Notes under the pieces: generated by a model
What the model saw: the letters and a program-made list of their open reading frames with translations, nothing else
Databases searched by the model: none
What the model was told of the DNA's origin: nothing
Part shown: in pieces, positions 2,571-61,717 of the stretch
How the letters are laid out: every line of letters begins with the position of its first letter
Position numbering within the stretch: the first letter of the stretch is position 1
Made by a program: the position numbers and the translations under genes
Assembly: GCF_032842345.1 (NCBI RefSeq)
Contig: NZ_WBKO01000001.1
Location: 930,001 to 994,000 of the forward strand
DNA length: 64,000 bases
Reading direction: 5' to 3'
DNA from: Methanoculleus caldifontis
GTDB taxonomy: Archaea; Halobacteriota; Methanomicrobia; Methanomicrobiales; Methanoculleaceae

Positions 2571-2870
2571 GTTGCACGTCCTCACATCCGTGATCGCAAG
2601 CATTCCTGCCGATCGGACGGAGAAGGTGGAGCGAGTGGTTCTCACTCGCCCACGTATTATGATAGTATAAATTCATATCACGAAGTTTGCTTATTTTCAG
2701 TGTTTTATTCGCACTTTCGGTCTTCCCGGCCACCGCGACGCCCGCCCCGGTCACCGGGAGGCGCGCGGGGGTTGGGTTGAGGCTGTTCGAGCACTCGAGA
2801 AGCTCGTTCGGCTTTGTTGAATCCCTTTCCCTGAGATCGAATCGTCTGCAGAATTCTCCATACCACTCGA

Positions 2871-2986
2871 CTCACGCGAAGCCGCGAAGTGCGAGCGTAG
2901 CGAGCTTGAGCACCGTCTGGTGCGAAGAACGCGAAGGAGGCTGTCAGTATCCATTCAGGCTTCGTGCCTCCGCGGCTTCGCGTGAG
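2871..2986. repeat. dispersed palindromic repeat, copy 1 (116 bp)
   Basis: Bounded by a perfect 16-bp inverted repeat: CTCACGCGAAGCCGCG at 2871-2886 and its complement at 2971-2986. The interior (GCGAAGGAGGCTGTC...ATCCATT) resembles the interior of the copy at 34738. It is intergenic between mcrA and dinB. The 925-base gap 2547-3471 otherwise holds no convincing gene: a 130-codon frame at 2687-3079 runs straight through this repeat and looks spurious. Confidence 0.8.
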
Positions 2987-3128
2987 GTCACATCACCACC
3001 ATCTCGTGGTACCTGGACGTTCTCCAGAGGATGTGAAGCATTTCAACAGAGCCGCTCGTTCACGATAGATTCTCGGTGAAGCGCGGCGTCCCGCCAAGAA
3101 TGGGGCATGGGCACCGCAAGATGCGAGA

Positions 3129-3240
3129 CGTGAAAGCCGCGAGGGAGTCACCTACGCCAATCTCCTTTTCTTCGCGCTCTTCGCGGCTTCGCGTGCGATG
3201 TCGATGTAGGGACAACGATATGGTCTCACGCGAAAGCCGT
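3129..3240. repeat. dispersed palindromic repeat, degenerate copies
   Basis: A degenerate left arm (CGTGAAAGCCGCGAG, near 3129) faces TCGCGGCTTCGCGTG at 3181-3195. Another arm, TCTCACGCGAAAGCC, follows from 3224. The sequence before that arm, CGATATGGTCTC, recurs before the copy near 4575, so some flanking sequence belongs to the repeat unit. Confidence 0.6.
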
Positions 3241-3471: not shown

Positions 3472-4554
3472 GTGACGACCGGCGGTCGGATCATCCTGCA
3501 CGTGGACATGGACAGTTTCTTCGCCTCCGTGGAGGTCCGCCGCGACCCGTCTCTTGCCGGGAGGCCGGTGATCGTCGGCGCCGACCCGAAGGGAGGGACG
3601 GGTCGGGGGGTCGTGAGCACCTGCTCGTATGAGGCCCGGCGTTACGGGGTCCGCTCCGGCATGCCCATATCGCGGGCGTACGACCTCTGCCCGCACGGTG
3701 TCTACCTCCCGGTGGACCGGCCGCTCTATGCCGGTGCCTCAGCGGAGATCATGGCGATCCTCTCCCGGCACGCCGACCGGATCGAGCAGGTGAGCATCGA
3801 CGAGGCCTACCTCGACGTCAGCTCCGCCGGGAGTTTCCCGGCGGCGAGGGCGCTTGCCGCCGCGATCAAGCGGGAGGTCCGCGAAGAGGCGGGGCTCACC
3901 TGCTCCGTCGGCGTCGCCCCGGGCAAGGCCGTCGCGAAGATCGCCTCCGACTACGAAAAGCCCGACGGGCTGACGATCGTCGCCCCGGAGGAGGTCGCGG
4001 GGTTCCTCGCCCCCCTCCCGGTCGAGAAGATCCCCGGCATCGGGAGGAAGACCGGCGAGGATCTCCGGCAGATGGGGGTCCTGACCGTCGGCGACCTTGC
4101 CCGGTGTGACGTCCAGGACCTTATCTCCCGGTTCGGGAGGGCCGGCATCCAGATGCACCGCCTCGCCCGGGGTATCGACGACCGCGAGGTGCGGGACCGG
4201 GGAGGGTGCCGGTCCGTCTCCCGCGAGACGACGTTCGACGCGGATACCGCCGACCCCTCCACCCTCTCGGGGACTCTCCTGGACCTCGCCGGCGACGTCG
4301 CGGGCACCCTCGCGGCGGACGGCCTGCGGTGCCGGACCGTCACCGTCAAGGTCAGGTACCGGGGATTCGAGACGCACACCCGGTCGAGGACGCTGGAGCG
4401 GTTTAGTGACGATCCGGGGGCGATCCGGCGGGCTGCATCCGCCCTGCTCCTCCCGTTCCTCAACGGCCGGCCCGTCAGGCTCATCGGGGTCAGGCTCTCG
4501 ACGCTCGAGGGGGGCCGGACCCGGCAGGCATCGATCGACGAGTTCCTCTCCTGA
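3472..4554 (+). CDS. dinB: DNA polymerase IV (Y family)
   Basis: Error-prone translesion DNA polymerase, 360 aa, normal length. Catalytic carboxylates are visible in HVDMDSFFASVE near residue 10 and SIDEAYLDVS near residue 105. A helix-hairpin-helix thumb follows (VEKIPGIGRKTGEDL), then the little-finger domain. The final residues, QASIDEFLS, fit a PCNA-interacting PIP box (Q-x-x-I-x-x-F-L), as expected for an archaeal Pol IV that binds the sliding clamp. The GTG start is chosen because GGGGAGGAG lies eight bases upstream. It stands alone between repeat-rich gaps; no lesion-response operator is obvious. Confidence 0.96.
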   Translation: MTTGGRIILHVDMDSFFASVEVRRDPSLAGRPVIVGADPKGGTGRGVVSTCSYEARRYGVRSGMPISRAYDLCPHGVYLPVDRPLYAGASAEIMAILSRHADRIEQVSIDEAYLDVSSAGSFPAARALAAAIKREVREEAGLTCSVGVAPGKAVAKIASDYEKPDGLTIVAPEEVAGFLAPLPVEKIPGIGRKTGEDLRQMGVLTVGDLARCDVQDLISRFGRAGIQMHRLARGIDDREVRDRGGCRSVSRETTFDADTADPSTLSGTLLDLAGDVAGTLAADGLRCRTVTVKVRYRGFETHTRSRTLERFSDDPGAIRRAASALLLPFLNGRPVRLIGVRLSTLEGGRTRQASIDEFLS

Positions 4555-4576
4555 CAGGTTGGGCAGCGATATGGTC

Positions 4577-4730
4577 TCGCGCGAAGTCCGGTGGTTACTT
4601 ACAACAGTCTCCTTCGCGGCTTCGTGTCTTCGCGTGAGGGCGCGTCATCGCCCATAAACTGTCAGCTCACCCGAAGCCGCGAAGAACGCGAAGTTCGGTA
4701 AATGGGTGTGCAATGCTCCTTTGCGGCTTC
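4577..4730. repeat. dispersed palindromic repeats, two copies
   Basis: First copy: TCTCGCGCGAAGTCC near 4576 paired with CTTCGCGTGAGG ending near 4639. Second copy: CTCACCCGAAGCCGCG at about 4665, followed by GAAGAACGCGAAG and TTCGGTAAATGGG, closing with TTTGCGGCTTCCTG near 4728. GGTAAATGG is the complement of CCATTTACC inside the 34738 copy, so this copy is inverted relative to that one. They fill the gap between dinB and the protease gene. Confidence 0.7.
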
Positions 4731-4799
4731 CTGTAAGATAGCGAGATCCGGCCGGCCGCAGGGCGAACCTTCTTTACGTGGCGTGCGCATCCTGCCGGC

Positions 4800-5633
4800 A
4801 TGCCCGACATCTGGACCGTGCTCCTTGCCGCCCTGCTCCTTCTCATTTTTGCGGTGCCGGTAGTCCAGCAGCAGGTGACCCGGGCCAGGCGCCTGCGGGC
4901 AATCCGGGACCTCGAGGCCGAACGCCGGACGCGGGTCATCGCCCTCATCCACCGGCAGGAGCGGGTCGCTTTTCTCGGCATCCCGTTCTACCGCTATATC
5001 GACATCAATGACTCCGAGGAGATCCTCCGGGCGATCCGGCTCACCCCGTCGGAGATGCCGATCGATTTTATCGTCCACACCCCCGGCGGCCTGGTCCTCT
5101 CCTCGGAGCAGATCGCGATGGCGCTCCGGCGGCATAAGGGGAAGATAACGATATTCGTCCCCCACTACGCCATGTCGGGCGGAACGCTCCTCTGCCTCGC
5201 CGCCGACGAGGTGGTGATGGACGAGAACGCCGTCCTGGGCCCGGTCGACCCCCGGATCGGCGACTACCCGGCAGCCTCGATCCTGCGGGTCCCGCACCTG
5301 AAGCCGCCGGAGGAGATCGAGGACGAGACCTTCATCCTGGTCGACATCGCATCGAAAGCCCGGAACCAGATGCGGGAGTTTGTCACGGTCCTGCTCCTTG
5401 ACCGGATGGAGCCTGAGCGTGCAGACTCCCTCGCACGCCTGCTCACGGAAGGGACATGGACCCACGACTACCCGATCACCTTCGAGCAGGCGCGGGACCT
5501 CGGCCTCCCCGTCATCCCCGGCATGCCTGCCGGGGTGTACCGGCTAATGGACCTCTTTCCCCAGGCGATGGTCCGCCGCCCGTCGGTCGCCTATGTCCCG
5601 GTGCCCTACCGGGAGGAGGAGAAGGGTCGGTGA
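4800..5633 (+). CDS. membrane-anchored ClpP-class serine protease (SDH proteinase/DUF114-like)
   Basis: 277 aa. An N-terminal hydrophobic segment (residues about 6-24) would anchor it in the membrane; the remainder is a crotonase/ClpP-like fold. HTPGG (93-97) is the typical oxyanion-loop motif, and MSGGTL places the candidate nucleophile at Ser126; DENAVLGPVDPRIG follows as in the SppA/ClpP superfamily. This matches the archaeal group labelled serine dehydrogenase proteinase (old DUF114), whose physiological substrates are unclear. No NfeD partner or ATPase gene is adjacent. No Shine-Dalgarno sequence is evident at the ATG. It is flanked by repeats on the left and a lipoprotein gene on the right. 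Confidence 0.85.
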   Translation: MPDIWTVLLAALLLLIFAVPVVQQQVTRARRLRAIRDLEAERRTRVIALIHRQERVAFLGIPFYRYIDINDSEEILRAIRLTPSEMPIDFIVHTPGGLVLSSEQIAMALRRHKGKITIFVPHYAMSGGTLLCLAADEVVMDENAVLGPVDPRIGDYPAASILRVPHLKPPEEIEDETFILVDIASKARNQMREFVTVLLLDRMEPERADSLARLLTEGTWTHDYPITFEQARDLGLPVIPGMPAGVYRLMDLFPQAMVRRPSVAYVPVPYREEEKGR

Positions 5634-17648: not shown

Positions 17649-17718
17649 TCGTCGATGGAAAACGAGGAGAGAGCGGGCCGCCGGCAACCGCCCGTGGGGA
17701 GCGAAGTGTGGCATGGAC

Positions 17719-17744
17719 TTCGCGCCTTCGCGCCCTCGCGTGAG
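17719..17744. repeat. single arm of the dispersed palindromic repeat
   Basis: CTTCGCGCCTTCGCGCCCTCGCGTGAG is a one-sided arm of the family, between the divergent promoter at 17640 and the stop of the ABC permease. No matching left arm is visible. Confidence 0.55.
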
Positions 17745-26634: not shown

Positions 26635-27254
26635 GGTTTGCTGACTGGGAACCTCATTACACCGCAATTCTTGAGTATTTCGGGTTCGAACGCGAGGCCG
26701 ACGAGGCGGCCGCCCGGCTGCTTGCTGACCTCGCGGGCGGCAGGGACGATCTCGGTCTCCTTGAGGCGCTCATCCGTGATAGGCCCGTGACGGTCTGCGG
26801 GAACGCGCCCTCTCTCCCGGACGAGCTCGGCCGGATAGAAGGGACGGTGCTTGCCGCCGATGCGGCCGCGGAGGTCCTCGTCAATCATGGTATCCGGCCG
26901 GACGCCGTCTTCACCGATCTCGACGGGGCGACGGACGTCTTCGTCGACCTCTCGGAGCAGGGGACGGTGATGGTCGTCCACGCGCACGGCGACAACCTCC
27001 CGCTCCTCCGCCACTGGGTCCCGCGCCTTCCCGGCCCGTTCGTCGCCACGACCCAGGCGGCCCCCCTCCCGCACGTCCACAACCTCGGCGGGTTCACCGA
27101 CGGCGACCGGGCGGTCTTTGCCGCCGACGACCTCGGTGCAGCGGAGATCCGGATAGTCGGGTTCGACCTTGCGGACAAAAACGTCGACCCCCTCAAGCGG
27201 GGAAAACTCTTCTGGGCGGGGGAACTCCTCCGCCTGATCGGGCATGACCTCTAG
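26631..27254 (+). CDS. mptE: 6-hydroxymethyl-7,8-dihydropterin pyrophosphokinase
   Basis: 207 aa. This matches the archaeal MptE (old DUF115) family, which replaces FolK and makes the pyrophosphate of hydroxymethyldihydropterin on the way to tetrahydromethanopterin, the C1 carrier of methanogenesis. Visible family elements: VTVCGNAPSL near residue 55, VLAADAAAEVLVNHGIRPDA, VFTDLDGA, MVVHAHGDN and RIVGFDLADKN. Normal length. It overlaps the DHH gene by four bases and the downstream radical SAM gene by 11, so all three are translated from one transcript. Confidence 0.9.
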   Translation: MRFADWEPHYTAILEYFGFEREADEAAARLLADLAGGRDDLGLLEALIRDRPVTVCGNAPSLPDELGRIEGTVLAADAAAEVLVNHGIRPDAVFTDLDGATDVFVDLSEQGTVMVVHAHGDNLPLLRHWVPRLPGPFVATTQAAPLPHVHNLGGFTDGDRAVFAADDLGAAEIRIVGFDLADKNVDPLKRGKLFWAGELLRLIGHDL

Positions 27255-28887
27255 CGCCCTCATCATCGACGGCTACGTCGACGAGCCCGCGTGCCTCGGC
27301 GTCGCCCCTTACATCTCCCCCTACGTCCGGGAGGTCGCCGGAGTCCTCTCCGGGCGCGGTTACGCGCTCCGCTACGTCACCATCGACCAGGTCCGGGCCG
27401 ACCCCTCGCTCGTCGCCGTACCCGGCCGCGGCGACCTCGTCGTGATGATCGCAGGAATGACCGTGCCCGGCGCCTACATCGGCGGGAAGCCGGCGACCCT
27501 GACGGAGGTCCAGCAGCTCGGTATCCTCCTCCGGGAGCCGACGACCGCGATCGGCGGGCCGATCGCATTCGGTTACGCTCCCGGCGGAGGAAGGAAGGCG
27601 ATCCGTCAGGCTATTGCTGGCTTCGACGTCACGCTGTCGGGGTCGCCTGCTGTCGCGCTGGAGAACTGGTTGTCGGGCGGGGAGCCCGCCGGTGCGGCCG
27701 ACTACTCGCTGACCGATCCCTGGTCGGTGGCGGGCGCCCCGATCATCAGAGAGCACCCGGCGTTCCCCTACGTGATGTGCGAGCTCGAGACCGCGACCGG
27801 GTGCTCGCGGGCGACGGTCGGGGGCTGCTCCTTCTGCACCGAGCCCTTCTACGGGCTCCCCCGCTACCGGAGCATCGGGGGGGTCGCGGAGGAGGTGGCG
27901 GCGCTCCATGCCGCGGGTGCCCGCCACTTCAGGCTCGGCCGGCAGCCGGACCTCCTCGCCTACCAGAGTTCCGGCGGCGAGTTCCCGGTCCCGCGCCCGG
28001 AGGTGCTCGAAGACCTCTTCTCGGCCATCCGTGCGGGCGCCCCGGATCTTGCGACCCTCCACATCGACAACATCAACCCGGGCACCATCGCCCGGCACGA
28101 GGACGCGGCGCGGGCGGCCCTTGCGGCGATCGTCGCAGGCCACACCCCCGGCGACATCGCGGCATTCGGGATGGAGACCGCCGACCCGGCGGTGGTCGCG
28201 GCAAACAATCTCAAGGCGATGCCGGACGACGTCTTCCGTGCCATAGAGATCGTGAATGCCGTGGGAGCAGGACGGACGGGCGGCATCCCGGAGCTCCTGC
28301 CGGGCCTGAACTTCATCGTCGGCCTTGCCGGGGAGACCCCGGCGACCTTCGACGCAAACCAGGCGTTCCTCCAGCGTGTCCTCGACGCCGGGCTCCTGGT
28401 CCGGCGGGTGAACATCCGGCAGCTGATGCCGTTTGAGGGGACGAAGGCCTACGACGAGAACGCTCTCGGAACGCACGACGCCCGGTTCAGGGCCTTCAAG
28501 GAGTGGACAAGGACGCAGTTTGACGAGCCGATGCTCCGCCGGGTCTTCCCCGCCGGCACCGTCCTCTCCGACGTCGTCATCGAGGTCCCCGGTAAACCGT
28601 CGTTCGGGCGGCAGATGGGCTCATACCCGATTCTCGTCGGGATCCCCCTCGACCTTCCGGCAAAGACCGTGCTTGACGCCGTCGTGGTCGACTGGGGGAT
28701 GCGGTCGGTGACGGCCCTTCCCTGCCCGGTGGCGGTCAACACCCTCCCGGTCGCGGCGCTCCGGTGGATCCCCGGCGTCGGCAAGAAGAGGGCCGCCACG
28801 ATCGCCGCCCGCCGGCCGTTCCGGAGCGTCGAGGAGTTCCGGAAGGTCGCCGGGGAGACGGGGATCGAGGACGTGATGGTGTTTTAG
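27244..28887 (+). CDS. radical SAM protein with CX7CX2C motif and helix-hairpin-helix tail
   Basis: 547 aa. The N-terminal 160 residues look like a Rossmann-type domain (VVMIAGMTVPGAYIGG). The cluster motif CSRATVGGCSFC has cysteines 187, 195 and 198, a CX7CX2C spacing in place of the usual CX3CX2C. Downstream barrel elements (ARHFRLGRQPDLL, LHIDNINPGTIA, FGMETADPAVVAANN, LPGLNFIVGLAGETPAT) confirm the radical SAM fold. The C-terminus is a helix-hairpin-helix (LRWIPGVGKKRAATIAARRP). It resembles the uncharacterised archaeal Fe-S oxidoreductases of COG1031. It overlaps mptE by 11 bases. Substrate unknown; the tail suggests nucleic acid. Confidence 0.87.
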   Translation: MTSSALIIDGYVDEPACLGVAPYISPYVREVAGVLSGRGYALRYVTIDQVRADPSLVAVPGRGDLVVMIAGMTVPGAYIGGKPATLTEVQQLGILLREPTTAIGGPIAFGYAPGGGRKAIRQAIAGFDVTLSGSPAVALENWLSGGEPAGAADYSLTDPWSVAGAPIIREHPAFPYVMCELETATGCSRATVGGCSFCTEPFYGLPRYRSIGGVAEEVAALHAAGARHFRLGRQPDLLAYQSSGGEFPVPRPEVLEDLFSAIRAGAPDLATLHIDNINPGTIARHEDAARAALAAIVAGHTPGDIAAFGMETADPAVVAANNLKAMPDDVFRAIEIVNAVGAGRTGGIPELLPGLNFIVGLAGETPATFDANQAFLQRVLDAGLLVRRVNIRQLMPFEGTKAYDENALGTHDARFRAFKEWTRTQFDEPMLRRVFPAGTVLSDVVIEVPGKPSFGRQMGSYPILVGIPLDLPAKTVLDAVVVDWGMRSVTALPCPVAVNTLPVAALRWIPGVGKKRAATIAARRPFRSVEEFRKVAGETGIEDVMVF

Positions 28888-28941
28888 GGTAATCTCTTCA
28901 CGGTTTCGTGTGAGTCAGCGGTGTATGGAGTGACCGGTGTC

Positions 28942-29105
28942 CCACGCGAAGGCGCGAAGCCGCGAAAGAGATTTTCCAGTCCCCTGACATCGGCCTTCGC
29001 GTTCTTCGCGGCTTCGCGTGAGGTCGTATCGTAATCTGGACTCGTTAATTCACGCGAAGTCTGACCGCTGGGTGCTAATGACTTCCCCTTTGCAGTTCGC
29101 GTGAG
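28942..29105. repeat. dispersed palindromic repeats, two copies
   Basis: Copy 28942-29022 runs from CCACGCGAAGGCGCGAAG to CTTCGCGGCTTCGCGTGAG. Copy 29049-29105 runs from TTCACGCGAAGT to AGTTCGCGTGAG with an unrelated centre. A further half-arm, CACGGTTTCGTGTGAG, lies at 28899-28914. Together they fill the 245-base gap between two convergent genes, where hairpins could stop transcription from both sides. Confidence 0.75.
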
Positions 29106-29132
29106 GCCGGCCCCCCCTTCGCACCTCCCACG

Positions 29133-34523: not shown

Positions 34524-34737
34524 CTTGTATCCCTCATATTCAGCACTCTGATGTACCGTTTGTTCTTAGGGGACAAAGTGTTTGTGTGCACGACGTTCCG
34601 ATAGGAACGGAGTGGGAGCACCGGAGGTCCGACTCGCGATGGGCCGGGGGGCTCGAGGCGGGAGCATTTGGGGTGCGAAGGCCGATGGCCTGGAAAGCCG
34701 GAATTCGAGCCCTCCAGGGGGAGAAATGGGAGTGAAT

Positions 34738-34860
34738 CTCACGCGAAGGCGCGAAGAGCGCGAAGGATTGTCAAGATCCATTTACCCGACTTCGCGGCTT
34801 CGCGCCTTCGCGTGAGGTAACAGTGGGATAGTGACTTAGTCTCACACGACGCCGCGAAGG
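34738..34860. repeat. dispersed palindromic repeat, best-preserved hairpin
   Basis: CTCACGCGAAGGCGCGAAG at 34738-34756 is perfectly complementary to CTTCGCGCCTTCGCGTGAG at 34798-34816 (19-bp arms, 41-base centre). A further half-arm, CTCACACGACGCCGCG, follows at about 34841. The rest of the 394-base gap (34590-34735, purine-rich) holds nothing I can identify. Confidence 0.85.
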
Positions 34861-52732: not shown

Positions 52733-53528
52733 CGATCCGCTCTACGTGATCCTGCGCAGCAAACGCGAAGCCACGCGATTCCAGATCCTCGTCGAGATCG
52801 CCGAGCACCAGCCGGCGATCCGCCAGCAGGAGGTCGCCGCGAAACTCGGCGTGACCCCCCAGGCCGTCTCCGAGTACATCCGCGAGATGGTGGACGAAGG
52901 ACTGGTCATGGCCCAGGGCCGGGGCCGGTACGAGGTGACGAAGAACGGGATCGAGTGGGTCCTGCGGCACGCAGAGGCTCTCGAGGCCTATGCCCGCCAC
53001 GTCAACCGCGACATCATCCGGCAGGTCGCGGTCTGGACGGCCGTCGCCCGGGACGATATCGCGAAGGGGGATACCGTCGGCGTCTTCATGCGGGCCGGTT
53101 GGCTCTACGCGACGAAAGAGACGGAGCAGAGCGCCACGGGCCTCGCGACCATGGATGCGGCGGCCGGAGAGGACGTCGGCGTGGCTCACCTGAGCGGGAT
53201 CATCGAGCACGCGGAGGGGCTTGTCCACGTCTGCAAGGTACCGCGGGTGGAGCGGGGCGGGTCCCGCCAGGTCCGGGCGGACCTCCTCAGAGAGGCCGTC
53301 CGGGACGCGGAGATGGTGGCCGCGGTGGGTCTTGAATCCTACGTGGCCCTCAAAAAGGCAAATATCGAACCTGATATGTTCTTTGGCTCCCGCGAGGGCG
53401 TTATCGAAGCGGCGTTCCACGGCCGGGAGTGCGCAATCCTTATCGTTGATGAGGAGTTTACCGATTTTCTCAAGCGACTGGAGACGGTGGGGCTCACCTA
53501 CACGATCCACGACCTGATAGCACCATGA
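52716..53528 (+). CDS. winged-helix protein with conserved archaeal C-terminal domain
   Basis: 270 aa from TTG 52716. A MarR/ArsR-type helix-turn-helix lies at about 15-75 (ATRFQILVEIAEHQPAIRQQ, then EVAAKLGVTPQAVSEYIREM). The remaining 190 residues form a conserved-looking alpha/beta domain (DIAKGDTVGVFMRAGWLYAT, ADLLREAVRDAEMVAAVGLE, FFGSREGVIEAAFHGRECAI) with no enzyme motif I recognise. It overlaps its neighbours by 17 and 4 bases and is therefore tightly coupled to the ArsR-like regulator and the helicase. Probably a DNA-binding regulator; ligand unknown. Confidence 0.75.
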   Translation: MTGLSDDPLYVILRSKREATRFQILVEIAEHQPAIRQQEVAAKLGVTPQAVSEYIREMVDEGLVMAQGRGRYEVTKNGIEWVLRHAEALEAYARHVNRDIIRQVAVWTAVARDDIAKGDTVGVFMRAGWLYATKETEQSATGLATMDAAAGEDVGVAHLSGIIEHAEGLVHVCKVPRVERGGSRQVRADLLREAVRDAEMVAAVGLESYVALKKANIEPDMFFGSREGVIEAAFHGRECAILIVDEEFTDFLKRLETVGLTYTIHDLIAP

Positions 53529-61622: not shown

Positions 61623-61717
61623 TTCGCACCTGACGGTGCTCATGCTCCGACCCGTCGCACTTCGCACCTGACGGTGCTACTGCCCGCTTCGCTCGCAAGT
61701 CGCGCCTGACGGCTTCT
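61623..61717. repeat. short direct repeats upstream of the hypothetical gene
   Basis: TTCGCACCTGACGGTGCT occurs at 61623-61640 and again at 61661-61678, with a degenerate third copy (GTCGCGCCTGACGG) near 61700. CACC...GGTG within each unit is a small palindrome. The 215-base gap 61585-61799 otherwise has no gene. Confidence 0.55.

Follow-up and report, generated by a model that had tools for sequence, protein, structure and literature searches.

Palindromic repeats between the genes of Methanoculleus: a dispersed and probably non-autonomous mobile family with flipped interiors

The window analysed here, a stretch of 64,000 nucleotides of the archaeon Methanoculleus caldifontis, holds at 2871-2986 a palindrome whose arm, CTCACGCGAAGCCGCG, recurs in several other intergenic gaps, which raises the question of what such repeats are and how they came to be there. 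Dispersed palindromes of archaea are, to our knowledge, little described. The closest relatives of the window genome belong to Methanoculleus, a genus with dozens of species in which filled and empty orthologous sites can be compared, and insertion, flipping, nesting and co-option can therefore be ordered in time.

The arm is matched 13 times in the window with up to three mismatches, against 2.6 expected and a maximum of 7 in 100 shuffles, and it is exact at 2871-2886 (plus strand), 2971-2986 and 29007-29022 (both minus strand). The match at 52760, which has three mismatches and falls within a gene, is probably due to chance. Across the host genome (2.617 Mb), 245 arms are found with up to two mismatches, compared with 2 for a reversed-pattern control. 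The copy number in 35 congeners ranges from 0 to about 246; with at most one mismatch, there are 204 arms in G001, 130 in G015, fewer in the other congeners and 0 in four genomes, and a looser pattern, which reaches 246 per genome, is almost restricted to Methanoculleus within the order. The repeats match no RNA family in an Rfam search, in which tRNAs are the sole matches, and nothing in a plasmid search, and a literature text search with the arm and cassette strings returned no relevant paper. Palindromes with arms of the same type, TCACGCGAAG(NCGCGAAG)n, and unrelated centres are present in unrelated IMG/VR contigs (L274, L275, L285, L286, L288), where the likeness may reflect common descent or convergence.

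The arms of these repeats, hereafter family A, are runs of GCGAAG-type 8-9-mers. In the arrangement S1, a unit of 79 bp, paired arms point towards each other over a spacer of about 27 nt, and in S2 the arms face away from each other across 24-27 nt; arrays alternate S1 and S2 in the pattern + 63 - 41 + 63 -. The initial annotation had placed copies at six sites, all of which gene calling confirms as intergenic, and two of them turn out to be degenerate. The palindrome at 2871-2986 (plus strand) has perfect outer arms of 16 bp. At 3129-3240, there is one good arm (3182-3197, minus strand) with two decayed arms near 3129 and 3225, and the site listed at 17719-17744 is a lone degenerate half-palindrome (17718-17744, minus strand). 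A two-unit array occupies 4570-4735, between a Pol IV gene (3472-4554) and an SDH-type protease gene (4800-5633), and a multi-unit array lies between convergent genes at 28897-29110. The last copy, at 34738-34860, is composed of a unit (34738-34816) and a half unit between divergently transcribed genes.

Family A is present at some orthologous junctions and absent at others, its copy number varies widely between species, and its insertions lie between genes. The segment 28888-29140 (252 bp) corresponds to a gap of 3 nt in G017 and of 20 nt in G015, and elsewhere in the genus the junction is occupied by different A arrays or by family C. The latter is a third palindrome, of considerable length (GGATATCGCC...GGGGAGGGGGG..., in L204-L206, L208-L210, L215, L216, L218, L219 and L302), and sits in other species at gene junctions occupied by A in the host. 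Downstream of the Pol IV gene, the window has about 200 bp containing A, whereas several congeners have no more than a short spacer and G015 has a different, single-unit A. The reverse situation is seen at 27251-27256 (plus strand), an empty target site CTAGCG in this genome (G000), at which ten congeners carry an A insertion; G017 and G031 are empty as well. In G015, the insertion measures 154 bp and lies between two copies of CTAGCG, and this 6-bp duplication, perfect in one species, marks one ancestral insertion of A. Its right end provides an in-frame ATG to the downstream gene (MPGSTSALIIDGY in G015 versus MTSSALIIDGY in G000), which is visible in 10/10 filled sequences; in these ten species (L329-L338, orthologues of window 27244-27256), the end of the inserted A now forms the region around the start codon of a radical-SAM-like gene. 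With 245 arms genome-wide instead of copies confined to the window, and with these presence and absence differences, the condition named earlier as one that would refute it does not hold, and the earlier claim that the repeats are dispersed copies of one element is borne out, as is its suggestion of mobility.

The interior between the arms has been repeatedly flipped or replaced with unchanged flanks. At the 27250 locus, G015 has its interior inverted with respect to G001, G004 and G011, as does G025 with respect to G002 and G032; a larger inverted segment, with the left flank in it, is seen in G011. The locus has two interior types, which have replaced each other, and one of them also occurs at window position 28941. 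In MITE D, described below, the interior of the palindrome at 2871-2986 and that of its counterpart in L026 are likewise inverted relative to L128 and L130. In three separate comparisons, the scores are 32-49 for the flipped alignment versus 0-9 for the unflipped one.

Part of the mobility of family A has an identifiable vehicle. The palindrome at 2871-2986 lies inside MITE D (2810-3053, plus strand), a non-autonomous element of 244 bp with the ends GGCTTTGTTGAAT / TTTCAACAGAGCC, flanked by an 8-bp target duplication, GCTCGTTC, at 2802-2809 and 3054-3061. Its 13-bp terminal inverted repeats have two mismatches in the window copy and are exact in L019, L127, L129, L130 and L140. These five copies and L026, all in the host genome, have their own, different and exact 8-bp duplications, none is evident in L128, and the count is 7 of the 8 copies inspected. 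An intact relative of 1010 bp exists in G001 (L295), with MITE D ends, a 288-aa DDE_Tnp_1 transposase and an 8-bp duplication, CAAGCATC; it has relatives in G034 and G026, and its transposase has no match in the host genome at E 1e-15. From the DDE_Tnp_1 match and general knowledge of the IS5 family, we take this element to be IS5-type. An IS6 parent was rejected, as PF13610 is absent and the parent found is IS5-type. Some A copies thus ride in the MITE of an IS5-type (DDE) transposon with 8-bp duplications, and A is a passenger in this class, as is family C, which with a nested family B element takes the place of A between MITE D ends in G011. The earlier comparison with MITEs holds for 2871-2986, which has terminal repeats, the 8-bp duplication and an autonomous relative in a congener, and is at best putative for most copies. 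Outside MITE D, conserved outer ends of A were not found and the flanks of most copies differ; one insertion has the perfect 6-bp duplication described above and two have imperfect ones (AAGTGT/AATTGT and TCCGGGGA/TCCAGCGA). In other species, A copies at L178, L220 and L256 adjoin a common end motif, AAAATA(A)GGTGAAAAC(G)GTCCACT, which possibly represents another A-carrying MITE class.

Family B consists of double hairpins of 32-45 bp with the form stem2 - TCNNRCTC - stem1 - TCGCA, and it is independent of A, into which it inserts with 6-bp target duplications. In the window, an element of 32 bp (2890-2921, minus strand) interrupts the left arm of the A copy in MITE D between duplicated GCGAAG motifs at 2884-2889 and 2922-2927, and the segment 2890-2921 is precisely what is missing from a related MITE copy in G002. 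A second element lies beside an A copy at 34592-34632 (minus strand), and tandem copies fill part of an intergenic gap at 61624-61700 (plus strand). Genus-wide, B nests in A, in C and in other B elements, with further loci at L127, L129, L216, L219 and L251. One B pattern is matched 98 times in the host, and congeners reach 185 matches, against a control of nearly 0; A and B counts correlate moderately across genomes (Spearman 0.58), G001 being A-rich and B-poor and G026 the opposite. The sequence of stem1 takes many forms in which pairing is kept, and the stem is found unprompted in 44% of elements versus 12% of shuffles. Exact direct repeats of 5-6 bp, such as CTTCGC, CTCCCC, AGTCGC, CCTCGC, CTGCGC, CCCCGC and TCTTGA, flank 27 of the 133 elements with both ends found, and longer repeats flank none, though 8 bp were allowed. 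Shuffled pairing of the ends yields about 8 cases because CTTCGC is common, and the claim of 6 bp is therefore carried by the sharp cut-off and by the filled and empty pairs. In 126/140 cases, the final two bases of the target are paired with the element, versus 111 in shuffles (maximum 118). It is conceivable, although we hold the idea only tentatively, that B, and probably A too, belongs to a new class of transposition in Methanoculleus, integrated by a putative enzyme with a strict 6-bp duplication and with a hairpin that includes the target (CC with GG, AC with GT, GC with GC). If so, few known elements that generate a target duplication would be as small as B, and the choice of target would be guided by base pairing. 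The 6-bp duplications of B make the mobilisation of such short hairpins testable.

Taken together, family A is probably a dispersed, non-autonomous mobile palindrome shaped by selection and template switching. Copies outside MITE D would have been spread in trans by a putative enzyme with a 6-bp stagger or by carrier transposons that have since decayed, template switching by a polymerase at the arms may underlie the flips and the turnover of hairpins, and the removal of harmful insertions would account for the intergenic and convergent bias described below. Occasional co-option, in which an A end supplies the start codon of a gene, would complete the picture. Published work describes how a polymerase that switches template at short inverted repeats inverts spacers (PMC8604942) and creates or maintains hairpins (PMC8794818). 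This reading is weakened by the single A insertion with a perfect 6-bp duplication and the mostly unconserved outer ends, by the absence of the parent IS transposase from the host, and by arms that are no more alike within an element than between elements, which neither homogenisation by template switching nor selection for a hairpin predicts.

The spread could also have proceeded free of any dedicated enzyme, by template switching during replication or repair and by gene conversion that copies palindromes between sites, a process that the interior flips and swaps, the unit duplications and the composition of the arms from GCGAAG-type repeats would suit. The clean insertions into empty sites and the sharply defined 6-bp repeats are, however, what an integrase or transposase with staggered cuts typically leaves behind, and we regard this alternative as rather unlikely.

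A role at 3' ends, as a putative terminator or mRNA-stabilising hairpin kept by selection, is suggested by gene context and folding. Of the strict A arms, 158/161 are intergenic in a sample that is 81% coding; 38 of 80 A clusters lie in convergent gaps, compared with 32 of 180 spacers (Fisher p 1.6e-6), and divergent gaps are depleted, values that are approximate, given that the sample consists of regions chosen for holding A and that genes were called by a simple codon score. Single-strand folding of A copies beats that of shuffles with z between -3 and -8 (DNA folds: -5.3 for 2871-2986, -8.0 for 34738-34860). Termination or mRNA protection would account for the excess at convergent 3' ends, but so would selection against harmful insertions; avoidance of promoter damage predicts this junction bias too. 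Orthologous junctions in sister species often have no element at all or an unrelated palindrome. Comparison of arm variants within and between A elements reveals no covariation: arms are no more alike within one element than between elements (z about -1), so that their complementarity follows from the consensus and offers no evidence for a selected hairpin. A selectively maintained function at 3' ends is for these reasons improbable.

The initial annotation had likened the repeats to REP elements, a comparison that stands for the architecture alone. Like REPs and BIMEs, family A consists of short palindromes in more than 100 intergenic copies, arranged in arrays of alternating orientation. The corresponding mobilising enzyme, a RAYT (Y1/HUH) transposase, is missing: PF01797 is absent from the host, from G001, from G015 and from nearly all high-copy congeners, whereas the positive-control genomes and low-copy congeners do match. 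One Methanoculleus genome poor in A, G033, matches the Y1 transposase family 19 times, with many fragments among the matches. A GTAG/CGTC tag was not found at the foot of the palindrome, where the arms begin with CTCACGCG and no tag is conserved outside them, and REPs are not characterised by target duplications. A RAYT origin is thereby largely refuted, and we consider true REP/BIME elements very improbable. Least credible of all is a small invertible switch, in which a site-specific recombinase would flip A and control neighbouring genes, for although both interior orientations occur among orthologues, at about 30 bp the spacer leaves very little room for recombinase synapsis, no recombinase is linked, and the flips are seen between species and not within a clone.

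Compared with known systems, the probably mobile family A shares with REP/BIME elements (PMC2817692, PMC3733652) the short, high-copy intergenic palindromes, the alternating orientation and the mosaic arrays, and differs from them in its archaeal host, the lack of a RAYT and of the tag, the target duplications and the flipping centres. With IS-derived MITEs, it has in common the terminal repeats and 8-bp duplication of window 2810-3053 and the autonomous relative in G001, whereas terminal repeats cannot be recognised in most A copies. The inversions resemble those attributed to template switching in published accounts (PMC8604942, PMC8794818), in which a spacer is inverted between arms and stems are rewritten yet remain paired; unlike those, they occur here in a dispersed mobile family and with no homogenisation of arms within an element. 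The yeast mitochondrial GC clusters (PMC4478555) and known double-hairpin elements are similar in being tiny, GC-rich, dispersed hairpins that merge and have putative target duplications, whereas the elements of Methanoculleus are found in an archaeal chromosome, with duplications of 6 bp instead of 2-3 bp and with terminal target bases that pair with the first stem of the element.
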